From: Polycladidibacter hongkongensis
GTDB taxonomy: Bacteria > Pseudomonadota > Alphaproteobacteria > Rhizobiales > Stappiaceae
DNA length: 64,000 nt
Direction: 5' to 3'
NCBI RefSeq assembly: GCF_001561995.1
Contig: NZ_LLWC01000010.1
Location: 1-64,000, forward strand
The notes under the pieces are model-generated. The model did no database searches. It worked only from the letters and a program-made list of their open reading frames with translations, and was not told the origin of the DNA. Below are positions 1 to 7,190 of the stretch, piece by piece (within the stretch, counting starts at the first letter, position 1; every line of letters starts with the position of its first letter). The position numbers and the translations under genes were made by a program.

Positions 1-49
1 GCCGCTTTTCCGTCATCATCAATTGTTTTAGATATTCTGTTCTTATAGG

Positions 50-67
50 TGCCAGCTGCAGCTGGCA
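50..67. repeat. Perfect 18-bp palindrome near the left edge
   Basis: TGCCAGCTGCAGCTGGCA is its own reverse complement over all 18 bases. It lies just outside the G+C-rich remnant that starts near 95-110, where the sequence changes from A+T-rich to G+C-rich. As RNA it would fold to a 7-bp stem with a TGCA loop, and a T-run follows about 11 bases later, too far for a convincing terminator. A role as a recombination or binding site is possible but not shown. Confidence 0.5.
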
Positions 68-90
68 GCCCCTGCCTGTTTTTATAGTCT

Positions 91-394
91 TTATGCCGGT
101 TCTCCAGCGCCTCGGCCTGCGCCTCCACCTGCGCCGTTTGCGGGGAGCAGGGCGGGCTCGGGCACTTGGTTATCGGCCCAGGCGACAATATCAGCACTTT
201 CCGTGATGGGCGCCGCGTCGCCGCCAGACAGCAAAACAGGCACGATTCCGGCCGAGTATACCACCAGCCCCCCCCTTGCGGTCGGAGTAAGGCACGACGG
301 GATCTAGCGCATACCCGATCCCCTTCGCCTCGAGCGCCACGCGAACCTTCCGCACGAAGGGCGACACCGGATAGCCGACGCGTGTGATCGCCAT
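91..394 (-). pseudogene. Glutathione S-transferase (second of a coupled pair), frameshifted and 3'-truncated
   Basis: The reading frame opens at an ATG at 394 that shares its A with the stop codon of the upstream GST remnant (TGATG), so the two were translationally coupled. The first ~40 residues carry a GST thioredoxin-fold start with the active-site-like VGYPVSPFVRKVRVALE and then DPVVPY. At a run of eight C (268-275 on the plus strand) the frame shifts. With one base fewer it continues as a plausible GST N-domain (GIVPVLLSGGDAAPITESAD, then ADNQVPEPALLP) to a TAA at 91-93. A second shift near 130 would allow a different open frame to run to the window edge. The helical C-terminal domain is not recognisable. 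GSTs conjugate or reduce electrophiles with glutathione; this copy looks inactive unless the C-run is a sequencing error. Confidence 0.7.
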
Positions 395-920
395 CCCATC
401 ACCCTTTCTTGACGTCGCTTGCAAAGCGGGCGGCGTTTTCGGCAGCAATAGCCCTGTCATCGGCCTTGGCGTCCCAAAATTACGTTTGCGCCTTGGGGAT
501 GGTCAGGGCCTTTTGCACCGCAGGGCGGGCGTCGATGCGGTCGAACCACGTCTTGAGATGCGGCAGGTCGTCGACCTCTACCTTCGCCCAGACATAGGCG
601 CGTGCCCATGGATACGTCGCCATATCCGCGATCGAGTAGTCTCCGACAAGGAAGTCGCGTCCCTCAAGCCGGATGTTGAGCACCTCCATGAGACGACGGC
701 TCTCATCCACGTATCGCTTGATCGAGAACGGCTCCTCATGGCCGTTTGGCGCGGCGATGCGTTGGAAATACATCGCTTGCCCCATAATGAGTCCGACATG
801 GCCAACCTGGAAAAACAATCGTTGCAGCGTCTCGGAGCGTTCGACCAGATCGTCCGACAGGAACCTTCCGTATTTCTCGGCCAGATGCCACAGGATCGCG
901 CCGCGGTTTAGAGATGGATG
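394..920 (-). pseudogene. YfcG/YghU-like glutathione S-transferase, 5'-truncated with an internal stop
   Basis: Reading down from about 920, the frame gives AILWHLAEKYGRFLSDD, then GHVGLIMGQAMYFQRIAAP and DFLVGDYSIADMATYPW, the linker and helical C-domain of YfcG/YghU-type GSTs, which are glutathione-dependent disulfide reductases. The thioredoxin-like N-domain (about 80 residues) is missing and a TGA stands in frame at 921-923, so no normal start exists. The first ATG inside is at 818. A TAA at 480-482 interrupts the C-terminus; beyond it the frame continues (FWDAKADDRAIAAENAARFA) to a TGA at 394-396 that overlaps the next GST start. The 5' break lies where the divergent HxlR remnant also starts abruptly. 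Confidence 0.75.
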
Positions 921-1202
921 TCAGGCTGCGACATGGGAGGCCTCGGCGAAAACGGTTTCGAGGTGGGCGTCGAATCGAGCCAGATCAGGAGGGACATGCC
1001 GTGGAGGAACGAGTTGAAGAAGATGATCACCGAACGGCTGCGCCAGTTGGAAGTGCAAGGCCTGATGACTCGTGAAGTCATGGATACCGCGCCGGTCTCA
1101 GTGCAGTACCAGATCACCGAATTGGGCTGCACGGCGCTCGGGTTCCTCGACGAACTCAGGAAATGGAGCGAAAACCTGCCCAAGCATATCTCCGATGTTT
1201 AA
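918..1202 (+). pseudogene. HxlR-family winged-helix regulator, N-terminal part missing
   Basis: The C-terminal half is clear: KKMITERLRQLEVQGLMTRE, then VQYQITELGCTALGFLDELRKW, the recognition helix and wing of HxlR/DUF24 regulators. The usual start, with its conserved cysteine and the GGKWxxxIL helix, is absent; the first ~35 residues after the ATG at 918 do not resemble the family. The stop codon overlaps the start of the dehalogenase gene (ATG at 1195, TAA at 1200-1202), so the two were probably cotranslated. HxlR regulators commonly control a divergent detoxification gene, here presumably the broken GST. The truncated protein lacks part of the DNA-binding fold and is probably not functional. 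Confidence 0.7.
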
Positions 1203-1938
1203 ACTGCCGTGTCTGAAATCCGACCCGATTCCGGCCATTCATCCGGTACTGGAATACGCCGCAATGGGGGATCTGGCGGAGGACTACGAGCGGACCAAGG
1301 AGGACCTCGGGGTTCTCTGGATGGGTGTTGTTGCAATGGCCTTCGCCCACTATCCGCGATTTTACGAGACGCTCTGGTCGGCCCTGAAGCCACTTGTCGG
1401 CTCGGATGCTTTCACCCGCGCGTGCCACGACCTGCGCGATCAGGCCGAACGGGAGGCGGTCGCACTTTCGCCGCCGTCAATCCTGAGACAGCTCGACGAA
1501 ATAGGCTACGATCAGCATGAATTCGAGCAGATCCAAGCCCGCAATGAGATCTTCTCGGCCGGAAACATGCCATATCTTCTCATGGCGTCTCTCGCGCGCT
1601 TGGTCCTAGAGGGTGTTGAATGGCCCGTTGGTGCCGTCGCCCGCTGGCAGAGTTACTTCGCCCCTGCCTGAGCCGACCTGAAACGTGCCGTGGTAAGCGA
1701 TGACTACGAGCGTCACGTTGCCCGAGTCCACGACAGGACCGTCGTAATGGCCGCGGGTCTTCCGAACCCCACTGGGCTTTCGAGCGACGCGCTTCGCGAG
1801 GCTGCCGCGGCAGATTACACCTGCGAAGAAGTCTTGGCCGTCGTCCGCCTGTTCTATTGGCTGCTGCCCGGACTTGCACTCAACGTTGCCTTTTTAAGGG
1901 AGCAACTCATCGATCACCGTGTTCTCGAACAGAACTAG
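1195..1938 (+). pseudogene. dehI: DehI-family 2-haloacid dehalogenase, interrupted by one TGA and shortened
   Basis: The frame from the ATG at 1195 encodes a DehI-like protein (stereochemically non-selective hydrolytic removal of halogen from 2-haloalkanoic acids). First-repeat landmarks are HPVLEYAAMGDLAEDYE, LGVLWMGVVAMAFAHYPRF and GNMPYLLMASLARLVLEG. A TGA at 1669-1671 stops it after residue 158, but the same frame continues without a shift as ADLKRAVVSDDYERHVARV, AAGLPNPTGLSSDALREAA and VLAVVRLFYWLLPGLALNVA to a TAG at 1936-1938. The interrupted stretch reads FAPA-stop-ADLK, where relatives have a Trp, so TGG to TGA is the simplest change. Total length is about 247 codons against roughly 290 for DehI, and the region joining the two repeats (around residues 140-152) seems to have lost about 45 residues. 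Confidence 0.78.
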
Positions 1939-2585
1939 CGCTGAGGATAACCGCAAAAAACAAATAAAACTCTATATTTTCAAAGTCCTTTATGTTGGAG
2001 AAGGTTCGACATCAGGTCCGTTCCCACCGCCACTATCCTATTGATAGTAAACAAAGATAGCCCGCTTTCAAGTGGGCTTTTTTGTTGTTTGATAAAGAAC
2101 AAACCATGGCAGGTTTGGGTGATTTTACAACTCTATTGGGGATTCTTGTCAGAAAGTGCCAACAGATTACCAACAGGTATTCTTTGTTTGGTCCGCTTGA
2201 TCTCACCGCTTCTTGGCGATCATTCCACACCCATAAGACCATGCTAAGGCAGCAAACCTGACGAAAACTTTAGATCATTGCCATTGTTTTGCGCGGTTTA
2301 TATCGCACAATTTTTCATGAAATGTGGTTCTGAGCTTGACGATTTTAAACCTGAGTAGAAGCGCAATGCTGTGCGCTTTATCACCTCCAGGGAGAAGTTT
2401 AGTGCGCCTTCGCACTTTAGGTGCAGGCGGCTACCGAATGAGCAGCTGCTACAGCTCAACGGAGAAATGATCGCTCACCCATCCGACACCACCTGCAATT
2501 CATTCTTAATTGAATTTGACTTTTCGCAAACTAAGGCGTTTAAGCTGCGGCATAGTCGGCATAAATCATAAAAGGGAAGTGCCCC
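1939..2585. other. Intergenic stretch between the decayed island and nnrS
   Basis: Base composition drops to A+T-rich immediately after the dehI remnant. The stretch contains a small hairpin (ACTATC/GATAGT, 2032-2048), a clear rho-independent terminator at 2059-2083, and no convincing gene. Short open frames here have no family features. The terminator has no intact gene in front of it, which suggests that the 3' end of a native transcription unit lies between about 1945 and 2058. Confidence 0.5.
2059..2083 (+). terminator. Rho-independent terminator with no intact upstream gene
   Basis: AGCCCGCTT pairs with AAGTGGGCT (nine pairs including one G-T), followed by TTTTTT at 2078-2083. The nearest plus-strand gene upstream is the broken dehI, whose base composition differs, so the terminator probably belonged to a native gene or RNA displaced by the G+C-rich segment. 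Confidence 0.7.
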
Positions 2586-3785
2586 ATGGCTGACATGCAC
2601 ACGATGACACCTCGCGTTTGGTACACAGGCTTTTTTCAGGCCGGGTTTAAGTGCTTCTTTTTTAGCGCCGCTGTTTGGGCGGTTTTGGCCATGTTGCTTT
2701 GGATCCCGCTGGTTTCCGGCCATATCAGCCTGCCACTTGCTATGGATGCGGTGTCGTGGCATGCGCATGCTTTCTTGTTTGGCTATCTTTATGCGGTGCT
2801 TGCCGGTTTTCTACTCACAGCCATGCCAAACTGGACCGGGCGCCCTGCCCTGCATGGCCTTCCCCTTGCGGGGCTGTTTGCGCTGTGGCTTTGCGGCCGT
2901 CTAGGGTTTTTGCTCTCGCAGTACATAAGTCTTTGGCAACTGGCAGCACTTGAGCTTTCCATGCCACTTGCTCTGCTCGCCTTCTGTTTGCACGAGGTAA
3001 TCAAGGCGCGCAACTGGCGTAATCTGGTGGTTGCCGGGTTGATAGCGCTGCTGTTGTTGGCGGACGCCATGTATCTTGCGAACTTGTTTGCCGATGAGTA
3101 CGCCGCACAAGGAGTGGGTCAGCGGCTCGGGATTGCCGCCATGCTGCTCATGGTGGGGCTGATTGGCGGACGCATTATTCCCGCGTTTACCCGCAACTGG
3201 CTGACAAAACGCGGTGCAGGCAAGTTACCGACAGCGCCAATGCAAGGCTATGACAAGCTCAGCCTGCTTGTGTTGTTACTCAGTTTGATCTTGTGGGTAG
3301 CTGATGGATCTCAGAGCCTGGTTGCCGTCGGCCTGCTGCTTTCGAGCGTCCTACATTTGGGTCGGCTCTCGCGCTGGTGCGGCTTACAAACCCTTGCAGA
3401 GCCTTTACTGTTTGTGTTGCATGTGAGCTATTGCTTTTTGCCCTTAGGACTGGCTGCCATGGGGGTGAGTTTGCTGCTGCCTGATTTGATTGATGCCGTT
3501 GCCGCGCAGCACTTGGCCATGAGCGGCGTGATGGGTATGATTACGCTGGCGGTGATGAGCCGGGCCACACTCGGCCACAGCGGCGGAGCCCTTGTGGCAA
3601 GCAAGGGAACTGTCGCACTTTATCTGTCCATGTTCGCCAGCGTAACCTTACGGTTTGTTGCTGGATACTTTCCGGAGCATGCGCTGAGGTTCTACGAGAT
3701 CTCTGCCGTATTCTGGCTTGCAGCATTCTTTGGATTTTTGCTTGTTTATGGTGGCCGCCTGCTAAAGTCTTCTGGTTCGAGCTAG
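2586..3785 (+). CDS. nnrS: NnrS family haem/copper membrane protein
   Basis: A 399-residue polytopic inner-membrane protein of the NnrS family, linked to nitric oxide and nitrosative stress tolerance and often found beside denitrification genes. Family hallmarks are WHAH at residues 58-61, PNWTGR at 81-86 and GGRIIPAFTRNWL at 194-206; the histidines probably bind haem or metal. About twelve hydrophobic segments are visible. The start at 2586 follows an AAAGGGAAG-type ribosome site. No nitrite or nitric oxide reductase genes lie in the window, so a stand-alone role in NO stress defence is more likely than a place in a denitrification operon. The gene ends 8 bases before the convergent zinc-ribbon protein. 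Confidence 0.9.
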   Translation: MADMHTMTPRVWYTGFFQAGFKCFFFSAAVWAVLAMLLWIPLVSGHISLPLAMDAVSWHAHAFLFGYLYAVLAGFLLTAMPNWTGRPALHGLPLAGLFALWLCGRLGFLLSQYISLWQLAALELSMPLALLAFCLHEVIKARNWRNLVVAGLIALLLLADAMYLANLFADEYAAQGVGQRLGIAAMLLMVGLIGGRIIPAFTRNWLTKRGAGKLPTAPMQGYDKLSLLVLLLSLILWVADGSQSLVAVGLLLSSVLHLGRLSRWCGLQTLAEPLLFVLHVSYCFLPLGLAAMGVSLLLPDLIDAVAAQHLAMSGVMGMITLAVMSRATLGHSGGALVASKGTVALYLSMFASVTLRFVAGYFPEHALRFYEISAVFWLAAFFGFLLVYGGRLLKSSGSS

Positions 3786-3793
3786 ACCTCGCG

Positions 3794-4339
3794 CTAGCCA
3801 TCTAACGTGAACTTTTTGCTGTATCCGTGTTTGTTTTCCACCTCGAACACGCAGATTGCCGGGCTGGGGCGCCGCGCAATCAACGTGATATTGGCGCCCA
3901 ATGCGGGGACAATGTAGGCTTGATCATTGGCGCTAAAGGGCGCAACTTTTAATGAGTTGGCAGCGACCTGATACTGGTGGCGCTCTCCATTGATTTGGCA
4001 GGTCATAAAGCGGCGAAGTGTGATTTCACCATCACCGGCATTGCGCACCACAAACGAGAGTTGCCCCTCCTGCCCACTGCGACGCAGGTTTGAAAAACTC
4101 GCGCGAATTTCCTGTTTTTTCTCCAGTTCATGCAGGGTTGTGGAGAGTTCAAAATAGCCTGCGTAAAGCGCCAGCCCCCCGACTAGAATACCTATCAAGC
4201 CGCTGAACACTGAGAACAGGCCCGCATATGGGGCAACCAGACGCTGGCCCCGTCCCTGCCAATGATTGCAATTGGTACAAAAACGCTGACCTTCATGCGC
4301 AAAGGGCTCCTTGCAGGCCCAACAGTTCTTTTCGTTCAT
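3794..4339 (-). CDS. Zinc-ribbon membrane-anchored protein, function unknown
   Basis: A 181-residue protein with an N-terminal zinc ribbon (Cys6, Cys9, Cys21, Cys24; CWAC and CTNC), one hydrophobic segment at about residues 40-63, then a short charged helix and a beta-rich C-terminal domain with runs such as LSFVVRNAGDGEITLRRF that resemble an immunoglobulin-like fold. This layout predicts a cytoplasmic metal-binding knuckle and a periplasmic beta domain. I do not recognise a named family. It is convergent with nnrS. No signal for regulation is seen. Confidence 0.7.
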   Translation of the reverse strand: MNEKNCWACKEPFAHEGQRFCTNCNHWQGRGQRLVAPYAGLFSVFSGLIGILVGGLALYAGYFELSTTLHELEKKQEIRASFSNLRRSGQEGQLSFVVRNAGDGEITLRRFMTCQINGERHQYQVAANSLKVAPFSANDQAYIVPALGANITLIARRPSPAICVFEVENKHGYSKKFTLDG

Positions 4340-4417
4340 GACGTCCTGCCCGTTTGCCCCCGCTCTTGCTTACTGGCATTTACACTGAGGATTTCAAGTC
4401 CTAACAACAACTGCGAC

Positions 4418-4774
4418 CTAAGCAACAGCAGCGGGCGATTTAAACTCGATGCGATTGCCATCAGGATCAAAAACAGCGGCAATCGTCCCCCATTCAAACA
4501 CATGGGTCAGCGGCGATAACCCCCGGGATTTCAAGGTGTCGCAGATTTCAGCGAGATCGTCCGTGTTGAGCCGAAGGACATAATGCTGACGAGCGGATTG
4601 GGGTGTTTCAGAGGGGCGGAACTCGAGCATCAAATAGGCGCCGCCAAACTGATAACTGGCCAACTCCTGCGTGCGCTCAATGCAGGTCATGCCCAGCACA
4701 TCCTCGTAGAAACCGCAGCAGCGCTCCAGATTCTGTGTAAAGAGGATAATCCCTGTGGTTGCATTTGCCAACAC
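4418..4774 (-). CDS. VOC/glyoxalase-superfamily protein
   Basis: A protein of about 118 residues with the betaalphabetabetabeta layout of vicinal oxygen chelate proteins: ILFTQNLERCCGFYEDVLGM at the N-terminus and a second half ending VFDPDGNRIEF. I choose the GTG at 4774 because AAAGGAGGA lies nine bases upstream; an in-frame ATG at 4825 would add 17 residues unlike the family. The members include metal-dependent dioxygenases, lyases and antibiotic-binding proteins; a substrate cannot be assigned. It is transcribed away from katG. Confidence 0.8.
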   Translation of the reverse strand: MLANATTGIILFTQNLERCCGFYEDVLGMTCIERTQELASYQFGGAYLMLEFRPSETPQSARQHYVLRLNTDDLAEICDTLKSRGLSPLTHVFEWGTIAAVFDPDGNRIEFKSPAAVA

Positions 4775-5000
4775 GTCTTCATCCTCCTTTTGCGTTGCAT
4801 TCTGCGGAGGATGATAGCGCAACACGCCCGCACCTGCCGCGTGTCCAATAGGTGTAGAGCCAATTTACCTGTGCCCTTGACCCATCGGGGTTTGCGCAAA
4901 ACCCTTAAGGTTTGTCCAAGTGATTTCACCGGTTTTTAAGCGGCTCCAATGCAGCTTACCCTGAGGCATTACGTGCGTTTGTCAGAGGGAGGACAGCAAA

Positions 5001-7190
5001 ATGCAAACCGGAGGTTGCCCAGTGAGCGGAGCCGCGGCGAAACACGCCGCGGGTGGCGGGATGACCAACCAGAAATGGTGGCCCGAGCAGTTAAACTTAA
5101 GCATTTTGCATCAGCATAATCCGGCGGGAAACCCTATGGGCGCGCAGTTCGATTATGCCGCGGCGTTTCAGCACCTTGATCTGGAGGCTGTAAAGCAGGA
5201 TCTGATCGCCCTGATGAGCGACAGTCAAGACTGGTGGCCAGCAGATTATGGCCATTACGGTCCGTTTTTTATTCGCATGGCTTGGCACAGCGCGGGGACG
5301 TATCGCACCGCAGATGGTCGCGGCGGCGCTCGCAGCGGGGCTCAACGATTTGCACCGCTGAACTCGTGGCCCGACAATGTCAATCTAGACAAGGCCCGGC
5401 GATTGCTGTGGCCAGTGAAGCGCAAATATGGTGCGGCATTGTCATGGGCCGATCTGTTTATTCTGGCGGGCAACTGCGCGCTTCAATCCATGGGGCTTAA
5501 GCCTTTTGGCTTCGGCGGGGGGCGTGCTGATACCTACGAACCTCAGCAGGACATTTACTGGGGGTCGGAATCCGTCTGGCTTGAGGATGGCCGCTATTCT
5601 GGCGACCGTGAGCTGGAAGGTCCGCTTGCGGCGGTGCAGATGGGGCTTATCTACGTCAATCCGGAGGGGCCGAACGGCGTTCCCGATCCGCTTGCTTCCG
5701 CCCGTGATATTCGCGAGACATTCGCTCGCATGGCCATGGATGATGAGGAGACCGTGGCACTCACCGCTGGCGGGCACACATTTGGCAAATGCCACGGGGC
5801 GGGAGATGCGGCACTGGTGGGGCGAGAGCCAGAAGCCGCGCCACTTGAGGCGATGGGCTTTGGGTGGGCCTCGAGCTATAAAAGCGGCCATGGGGTTGAT
5901 ACGATCAGCTCGGGGATTGAAGGGGCGTGGACGCCGCAACCGACCCAATGGGATATGGGGTATTTTGACATGCTGTTCGGCTACGAATGGGAGCTGAGCA
6001 AAAGCCCCGCCGGTGCGTATCAATGGGTACCGATTGGGGTGAAACCAGCCGATTTGGCACCGCAAGTGGATGGCTCGGGACAGCGTGTCACCACAATTAT
6101 GACCACAGCTGATATGGCTATGCGCATGGATCCTGAGTATGAACGGATCTCAAGGCGCTATCATCAGGATCCAGAGGAGTTTGCTGATCGCTTTTCGCGG
6201 GCATGGTTTAAGTTAACCCATAGGGATATGGGGCCGCGCTGCCTGTATCTGGGGACAGACGTGCCCGATGAGGATTTGATCTGGCAAGACCCCCTACCCA
6301 CAACCCCTGCTCCGGCGCCTGAGGCCAGCGCGCTTGCAGGCCTCAGGCAGGACATTCTAGCGTGCGGCTGTAGCCTTACAGAGCTTGTCGAGACGGCATG
6401 GGCGTCGGCCTCCACCTTCCGCGGATCGGATTTGCGCGGCGGGGCCAATGGCGCACGCGTGCGCCTTTCACCGCAGAACAACTGGCGCGTGAACCGACCC
6501 GCACAGTTAGGGGTGGTACTTGATAAGCTGGAGCGCTTGCAAAACGCCTTCAATAAACTGAACACTGACTGTCATCTTTCACTTGCCGATATGGTTGTGT
6601 TTGCCGGCGGTGTAGCGGTGGAAGCTGCCAGTGATGAGGCAATCACTATTGCGTTTACGCCCGGCCGCGTCGATGCCACGCAAGCACAAACGGACATCCA
6701 CTCCTTTGATATGCTGCAACCGCAAAGCGACGGTTTTCGCAATTATCACGAGGATGGCCTTGCGGTTGCGGCGGAACATATGCTTATCGACAGGGCGCAA
6801 CTCTTGTGTCTGAGCGCACCAGAGATGGTGGTGCTTGTGGCTGGTTTGCGTTCACTTGGCATCACCCGCGAGGGCACCCGCCTCGGGCTTCTCAGCACAC
6901 AAACCGGCCAACTGAGCAATGAGGTGCTGTGTAAGCTGCTCGATACACGGCTGGTGTGGCATGAAAGGACGGCGCAATCAGGCATGTTCTCCGCACAAGA
7001 CCCAGAAAATCCCGCGGTACGTCATGAAGCTTCTCGGGTGGATCTTGCCCTCGCTTCAAACTCGCAGTTGCGCGCCATATGCGAGGTCTATGCCGCAGAT
7101 GATGGCAACGACAAGTTCCTGAGAGACTTTGGAAAGGCCTGGGAAAAAGTGATGAATTTGGATCGCTTTGATTTACACCGTCCGCAGTAA
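5001..7190 (+). CDS. katG: Catalase-peroxidase KatG
   Basis: A bifunctional haem enzyme that breaks down hydrogen peroxide as catalase and oxidises donors as peroxidase. At 729 residues it has the usual length and two tandem peroxidase domains. The distal triad Arg92-Trp95-His96 lies in [11 protein letters not shown]; Tyr218 ([12 protein letters not shown]) and Met244 ([10 protein letters not shown]) complete the Trp-Tyr-Met crosslink needed for catalase activity; the proximal haem ligand is His259 in [10 protein letters not shown]. No signal peptide is present, so it is cytoplasmic. A GGGAGGA ribosome site precedes the ATG. I saw no clear OxyR site. The gene is convergent with the alcohol dehydrogenase. 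Confidence 0.97.

Follow-up and report, generated by a model that had tools for sequence, protein, structure and literature searches.

Remains of a probably imported detoxification cassette beside an att-like tRNA-Ser motif in Polycladidibacter hongkongensis

A group of broken genes at the edge of a contig raises the questions of what the genes once formed, where they came from, and how they are being lost. Polycladidibacter hongkongensis – a member of the Stappiaceae (Hyphomicrobiales), a family shared with Hongsoonwoonella zoysiae (G026) – carries such a group at the start of contig C37 (183 kb, in a genome of 3.74 Mb), the first 64 kb of which (64,000 nucleotides) form the window, i.e. the whole stretch of DNA analysed here. 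An earlier sequence-only reading placed four broken genes within about 1.8 kb, at 95-1938. Pfam matches in 142-1938 to parts of the N- and C-domains of GST, of HxlR and of DehI, together with DNA comparison to an intact counterpart (L051), identify this stretch as the wreck of a divergent cassette. All four genes are broken, but an NAD(P)H-dependent oxidoreductase between GST1 and HxlR, nearly all of it deleted, had been missed; with this fifth gene, the broken genes are GST2, GST1, the oxidoreductase, HxlR and DehI. The gene remains lie about where they had been placed, but the match to L051 gives the true extent of the cassette as 131/142-2033, with positions 1-141 foreign to it (Table 1).

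Table 1. Features of the cassette remains and their flanks in the window, and recombinase genes of related elements in other genomes
Feature	Position	Strand	Evidence
Phage-type replication-initiation gene fragment, contig edge to the left, cassette to the right	1..141	-	98% to C35:2626-2766
Left junction, 11 bases fitting both partners	131..141	.	partners agree at 9/11
GST2 remnant, N-terminal part only, frameshifted	142..394	-	Pfam GST_N_3 E 7.8e-6; intact 228-codon relative L051:2314-3000
GST1 remnant, 8 first codons kept, 181-bp deletion near 900-910, one nonsense codon	399..934	-	Pfam GST_C E 4.5e-7; L051:3005-3721
NAD(P)H-dependent oxidoreductase, last 21 codons and stop	921..986	-	intact L051:3711-4316 is Flavodoxin_2, E 7e-32
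Remains of the HxlR regulator with its start region; 170-bp deletion that shifts the frame	1001..1202	+	Pfam HxlR E 5.7e-12; L051 alignment
Remains of DehI (2-haloacid dehalogenase); 147 bp lost in frame near 1633-1640, one nonsense codon	1195..1938	+	Pfam, fragment below curated cut-off; L051 alignment
Att-like tail motif, 36 bp, tRNA-Ser-like 3' end (CCGCCA)	1997..2032	+	also in L051; L050 with 4 mismatches
Diverged copy of the tRNA-Ser(TGA) 3' flank, down to a neighbouring gene fragment	2027..2480	+	C5 comparison
Serine recombinases, G017, 441 codons	L161:827-2152 and L163:1931-3256		Resolvase, Recombinase and zinc-ribbon domains
Shortened Resolvase frame, G025, 227 codons, beside an IS4/5-family transposase	L162:1592-2275		

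The intact counterpart belongs to Pseudorhodobacter sp. E13, a member of another order (Rhodobacterales), and matches window DNA from 131 to 2033 in blocks of 87% identity over 774 bp, 89% over 625 bp, 87% over 403 bp, 94% over 93 bp and 92% over 38 bp. The two cassettes are alike in gene order, overlaps, the 36-bp motif that follows, and DNA identity (87-94% in the larger blocks). They differ in that L051 is intact and runs on, its operon reading oxidoreductase – GST1 – GST2 – KefF-like – KefB/C-like with HxlR – DehI on the opposite strand, whereas the window copy is broken and, up to the contig edge, has neither a KefF-like nor a KefB/C-like gene. The Kef names denote best matches; the curated cut-offs for these particular models are not reached, but that for the CPA2 antiporter is. 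A divergent locus was also found on a Roseovarius plasmid among plasmid records. A pattern scan of species genomes, drawn from the DehI alignment, kept 32 loci from 121 candidate stretches; among these 32, some of which are cut by contig ends, HxlR lies directly upstream of DehI in 14, an oxidoreductase is a neighbour in 13, GST1 is on the opposite strand in 12, and GST2 adjoins GST1 in four. Literature searches on the gene set in Rhodobacteraceae, Pseudorhodobacter, Rhodobacterales islands and KefB/HxlR yielded no description, as judged from the search results. Plasmid near matches of window positions 1-24000 comprised nine records, with none over the cassette among the matches listed.

Relative to L051, the window copy has lost 181, 660, 170 and 147 bp through four internal deletions, GST2 is cut short, and one frameshift and two nonsense codons have been acquired. 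This agrees with the decay proposed earlier, although the individual lesions are partly different. GST2 is frameshifted and has lost its 3' part, as described, and stops at the junction with the phage-type gene. GST1 had been thought to lack its 5' end and to contain an internal stop; the nonsense codon is there, but so is the 5' end, with the first eight codons (MSQPDIHL) surviving and the 181-bp deletion then taking most of the N domain. The 660-bp deletion removed the rest of the oxidoreductase together with the divergent promoter region. HxlR has not suffered the 5' loss attributed to it; it retains its start region and instead has the 170-bp deletion internally, at an exact 8-bp direct repeat (1016-1023), after which the start and the body stand in different frames. 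The internal deletion and nonsense codon of DehI were read correctly, the deletion being the one of 147 bp, in frame and located at an imperfect 8-bp repeat. The left junction coincides with an imperfect 11-bp repeat, the 181-bp deletion has few shared bases at its ends, and the 660-bp deletion has about one. Two coupled starts had been proposed: the HxlR/DehI overlap ATGTTTAA is real and recurs in L051, again 8 bases long, with one base changed, but the ATG of 'TGATG' is not the start of GST2, which by comparison with L051 lies 5 bases beyond it in another frame.

The segment is richer in G+C than both flanks, as had been noticed, with 60.0% in 141-1938 compared to 53.6% in 1-140 and 44% immediately to the right. 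Comparison windows of 1798 bp from 2601 onward average 54.6% (sd 2.7), and 60.0% is reached by one of 1193. The G+C evidence is weak by itself, because 14 larger ORFs of the window span 50 to 60%, and composition was set aside as proof of foreign origin, true as the difference is.

The distribution of the genes is more informative about origin. A DehI profile search of 15 congeners gave no match in any of them, which makes horizontal gain – as suggested earlier, and in keeping with the closely similar intact copy in another order – the best reading; for the same 15 genomes, identically shortened frames in relatives were not seen. Across the family, 35 of 87 genomes (the window's own counted) have DehI profile matches, but, apart from the window's own genome, near-full-length DehI is present in only three (G026, G062 and G068). 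In G110 a piece of 47 residues matches, along with a weak second match, and in the remaining 30 the profile matches weakly, over about 90-120 residues of the C-terminal half. A DNA search of the 15 congeners (E 0.001, up to four candidates scored per genome) found no cassette match outside G008, which has a GST/HxlR pair with 69% and 82% DNA identity to the window. This intact divergent HxlR/GST1 pair (locus L018), and the near-full-length DehI genes in three other family genomes, could be taken to mean that the genus inherited the cassette from its ancestor and that the other lineages have since lost it, with a remnant here only. We regard such an ancestry as unlikely, in view of the DehI null result across the congeners, the GST1 of G008 being 69% identical to window DNA where that of L051 is 87% identical, and its being followed by a DsbA-like gene and not by GST2. 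The cassette was thus likely gained horizontally, as judged from these comparisons. Further to the right, the surroundings of nnrS (2586-3785) were compared with those in seven congeners to locate the empty site. The gene is 47-56% identical to their copies, and no neighbour within ~9 kb is shared (E 1e-15), apart from two ORFs that match weakly (29-32%) in two loci.

Homology predicts that the cassette handled haloacids and other electrophiles. This detoxification role, proposed in the sequence-only reading, is supported by the Kef-like genes in the L051 operon and by the L051 DehI protein, which aligns over its full length with a proven D-2-haloacid dehalogenase in the PDB, HadD AJ1 (5gzy and others; PF10778), at E 4.5e-57. 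Trp48, Asn131 and Asp205 of HadD are matched in the intact L051 protein, and Ser204 corresponds to Thr in intact relatives (numbering counted on the alignment, residues named after PMC5780510, in excerpt). The catalytic Asp (HadD Asp205, DehI Asp189) is found as NTDY in the aligned intact relatives and lies inside the 147-bp deletion of the window copy; changing HadD Asp205 to Asn abolished activity (PMC5780510, in excerpt). Because the region of the catalytic Asp is deleted, the window DehI is a pseudogene of this family and no working member of it. Consistent with its family assignment, three intact DehI relatives score 34-47 bits with PF10778 (cut-off 28.9); the window fragment 1195-1671 alone scores 25.4 bits, below the cut-off, and 1690-1938 gives no match.

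Open stretches of 94 and 158 codons remain, and dN/dS is below 1 against L051, so it could be argued that some shortened frames – the C-terminal half of HxlR and the N-terminal half of DehI – are still made and functional. This is very improbable, given the frame break between the HxlR start and body, the loss from DehI of the region of the Asp essential in HadD, and the replacements that DehI has accumulated at otherwise invariant columns. Private replacements of this kind number eight in the window DehI (the stop included) compared to 0-5 in 17 intact relatives; GST1 has four compared to 0-3 in 13 relatives, and HxlR has one compared to 0-3 in 13 relatives and shows no such signal. The counts used closer relatives only, which for DehI are 17 of the 34 loci L047-L080, leaving out L048 (a fragment), L063, L064 and L067-L080; L060, L064, L079 and remote matches were omitted for GST1, and L018, L019, L064 and L079 for HxlR.

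The cassette is thus best regarded as dead, and its in-frame blocks give an indication of when it decayed. Against L051, dN/dS is 0.34 and 0.61 in DehI, 0.20 in HxlR, 0.08 in GST1 and 0.18 in GST2 (35 codons). Values below 1 throughout this range (0.08-0.61) indicate that most of the divergence arose under selection, before the decay, which is more recent than the split from L051. In GST1 dS is much higher (0.69, versus 0.13-0.28 in the other blocks), which hints at a mosaic cassette for which L051 may not represent a single donor line.

The right end of the cassette bears on how it may have arrived. Homology with L051 runs beyond DehI and stops at 2033, in the 36-bp tail motif. The motif lies about 55-85 bp after DehI in the window, in L051 and, as a variant, in L050 (Pseudoponticoccus, also Rhodobacterales); at up to six mismatches it was found at no other of the 34 DehI loci. 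At up to two mismatches it occurs at 18 places in 11 of 121 genomes (the window's own included), compared to none for a reversed-pattern control, and exact copies are present on four viral contigs. Searched with its surroundings, it matched one plasmid record at E 1e-3; 14 phage records matched at E 0.2-0.7 and were judged to be chance. The AT-rich stretch preceding the motif is, by eye, common to only part of its occurrences and missing in G025. Rfam gave nothing at gathering scores on the window, and Trp_leader, the best sub-threshold match over 1900-2600 (25.1 bits versus 41, E 0.0095), was also judged to be chance.

Beyond the motif is the diverged flank copy, 75% identical to C5:17256-17606 over 355 columns (window 2027-2369), with window 2431-2480 80% identical over 50 columns to the end of the next gene on C5. 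The genuine tRNA-Ser(TGA) is intact on C5. Because the flank copy is 25% diverged and this tRNA gene is intact, the arrangement is not a simple insertion at tRNA-Ser(TGA), and the copy would have arisen through an earlier duplication or a rearrangement, or would derive from a related strain. Two small features lie within this flank: 49 bp at 2278-2326, within the C5-flank stretch, recur at 86% on C34 and are possibly a small intergenic repeat, and about 60 bp at 2370-2430, with short inverted-repeat-like stretches by eye, are missing from the C5 flank.

Elsewhere, the tail can be paired with a head sequence, which is present in 16 of 101 genomes. The head stands directly after an intact tRNA-Ser in five loci (GCT in three, GGA and TGA in one each) and by coordinates in three more; at locus L142 it has no tRNA. 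Head and tail occur in order, on the same strand and 43-56 kb apart, in G008, G025 and G017, and a second span in G017 (4378555-4446813) has weaker ends. Terminase, phage tail and type I restriction families are among the matches of nine proteins tested from the G008 span. No PF00589 integrase was found in the four head-tail spans (G008, G025 and two in G017); PF00239 matches are present in three of them, 9-12 kb from the head (G025 and both G017 spans), and the G008 span contains neither family, the serine recombinase of G008 lying on another contig. A large serine recombinase would be an unusual route for targeting a tRNA gene. That the cassette was terminal cargo of phage-like islands entering the 3' ends of several tRNA-Ser isoacceptors via such a recombinase is a tentative and rather doubtful idea; the recombinase findings are leads on the element family, with no direct tie to the window and no proof for it.

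The window itself would hold one end of such an arrangement. A displaced tRNA 3'-end fragment is present at the far end, as the motif at 1997-2032 followed by the tRNA-Ser(TGA) flank copy, and in having a tRNA 3'-end-like motif at the element end the locus resembles the tRNA-targeted genomic islands collected in Islander (PMC4383910, in excerpt). It differs from them in that the contig has no integrase and the genome no partner end: a head search of the window's own genome found none, with only the tail matching, and the absence of an integrase reported earlier extends to the whole of contig C37 for both PF00589 tyrosine integrases and PF00239 serine recombinases. The element's left end has either been lost or lies past the contig edge. 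Elsewhere in this genome, on C7, a phage integrase gene (PF00589, L149:7303-8337) ends beside tRNA-Ser(GCT), with a long run of ORFs past it that were taken by eye as phage genes; this would be another integration at a tRNA-Ser gene in P. hongkongensis.

At the left, the junction at 131-141 fuses GST2 to a phage-type replication gene. The C35 counterpart of this gene fragment sits in a 396-codon ORF whose product resembles PHROG replication families (E 5.5e-7 for the best match), and its neighbourhood includes a tyrosine integrase adjoining tRNA-Gln. The order on C35 (L022:21-479, 2094-6896) is a transposase-like ORF (by eye), then the replication gene, the integrase and tRNA-Gln. The C35 stretch probably represents an integrated element, and a portion of it is duplicated at window position 1. 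With the contig beginning inside a near-identical C35 repeat, the junction might be an assembly artefact that joins two unrelated pieces; however, with three differences from C35 in its 141 bases, the fragment looks like a distinct copy, and the lesions within the cassette are independent of the junction. We consider an artefact quite unlikely.

Taken together, it is quite probable that the locus is an imported compact detoxification cassette, carried as cargo at one end of a tRNA-Ser 3'-end element, that has decayed and has lost its left part by fusion to a phage gene. A compact divergent cassette (oxidoreductase – GST1 – GST2 / HxlR – DehI) would have arrived from another organism, riding near one end of an element that targets tRNA-Ser 3' ends for integration. 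Once it was no longer useful it would have decayed, chiefly through deletions, several of which fall at short direct repeats, until all of its genes were broken, and its left part would have been cut off through fusion with the phage-type replication gene.

The finding is real but mostly ordinary, a case of decayed island cargo, and the small genome (3.7 Mb, as in one congener, with 4.2-6.5 Mb in 14 of the 15) fits ordinary genome turnover. What it offers is an apparently imported detoxification cargo caught during its loss, and the intact reference is similar enough for every deletion to be mapped. The link to the att-like end is the part worth keeping, and a tail common to two orders provides a handle for finding further such cargo.
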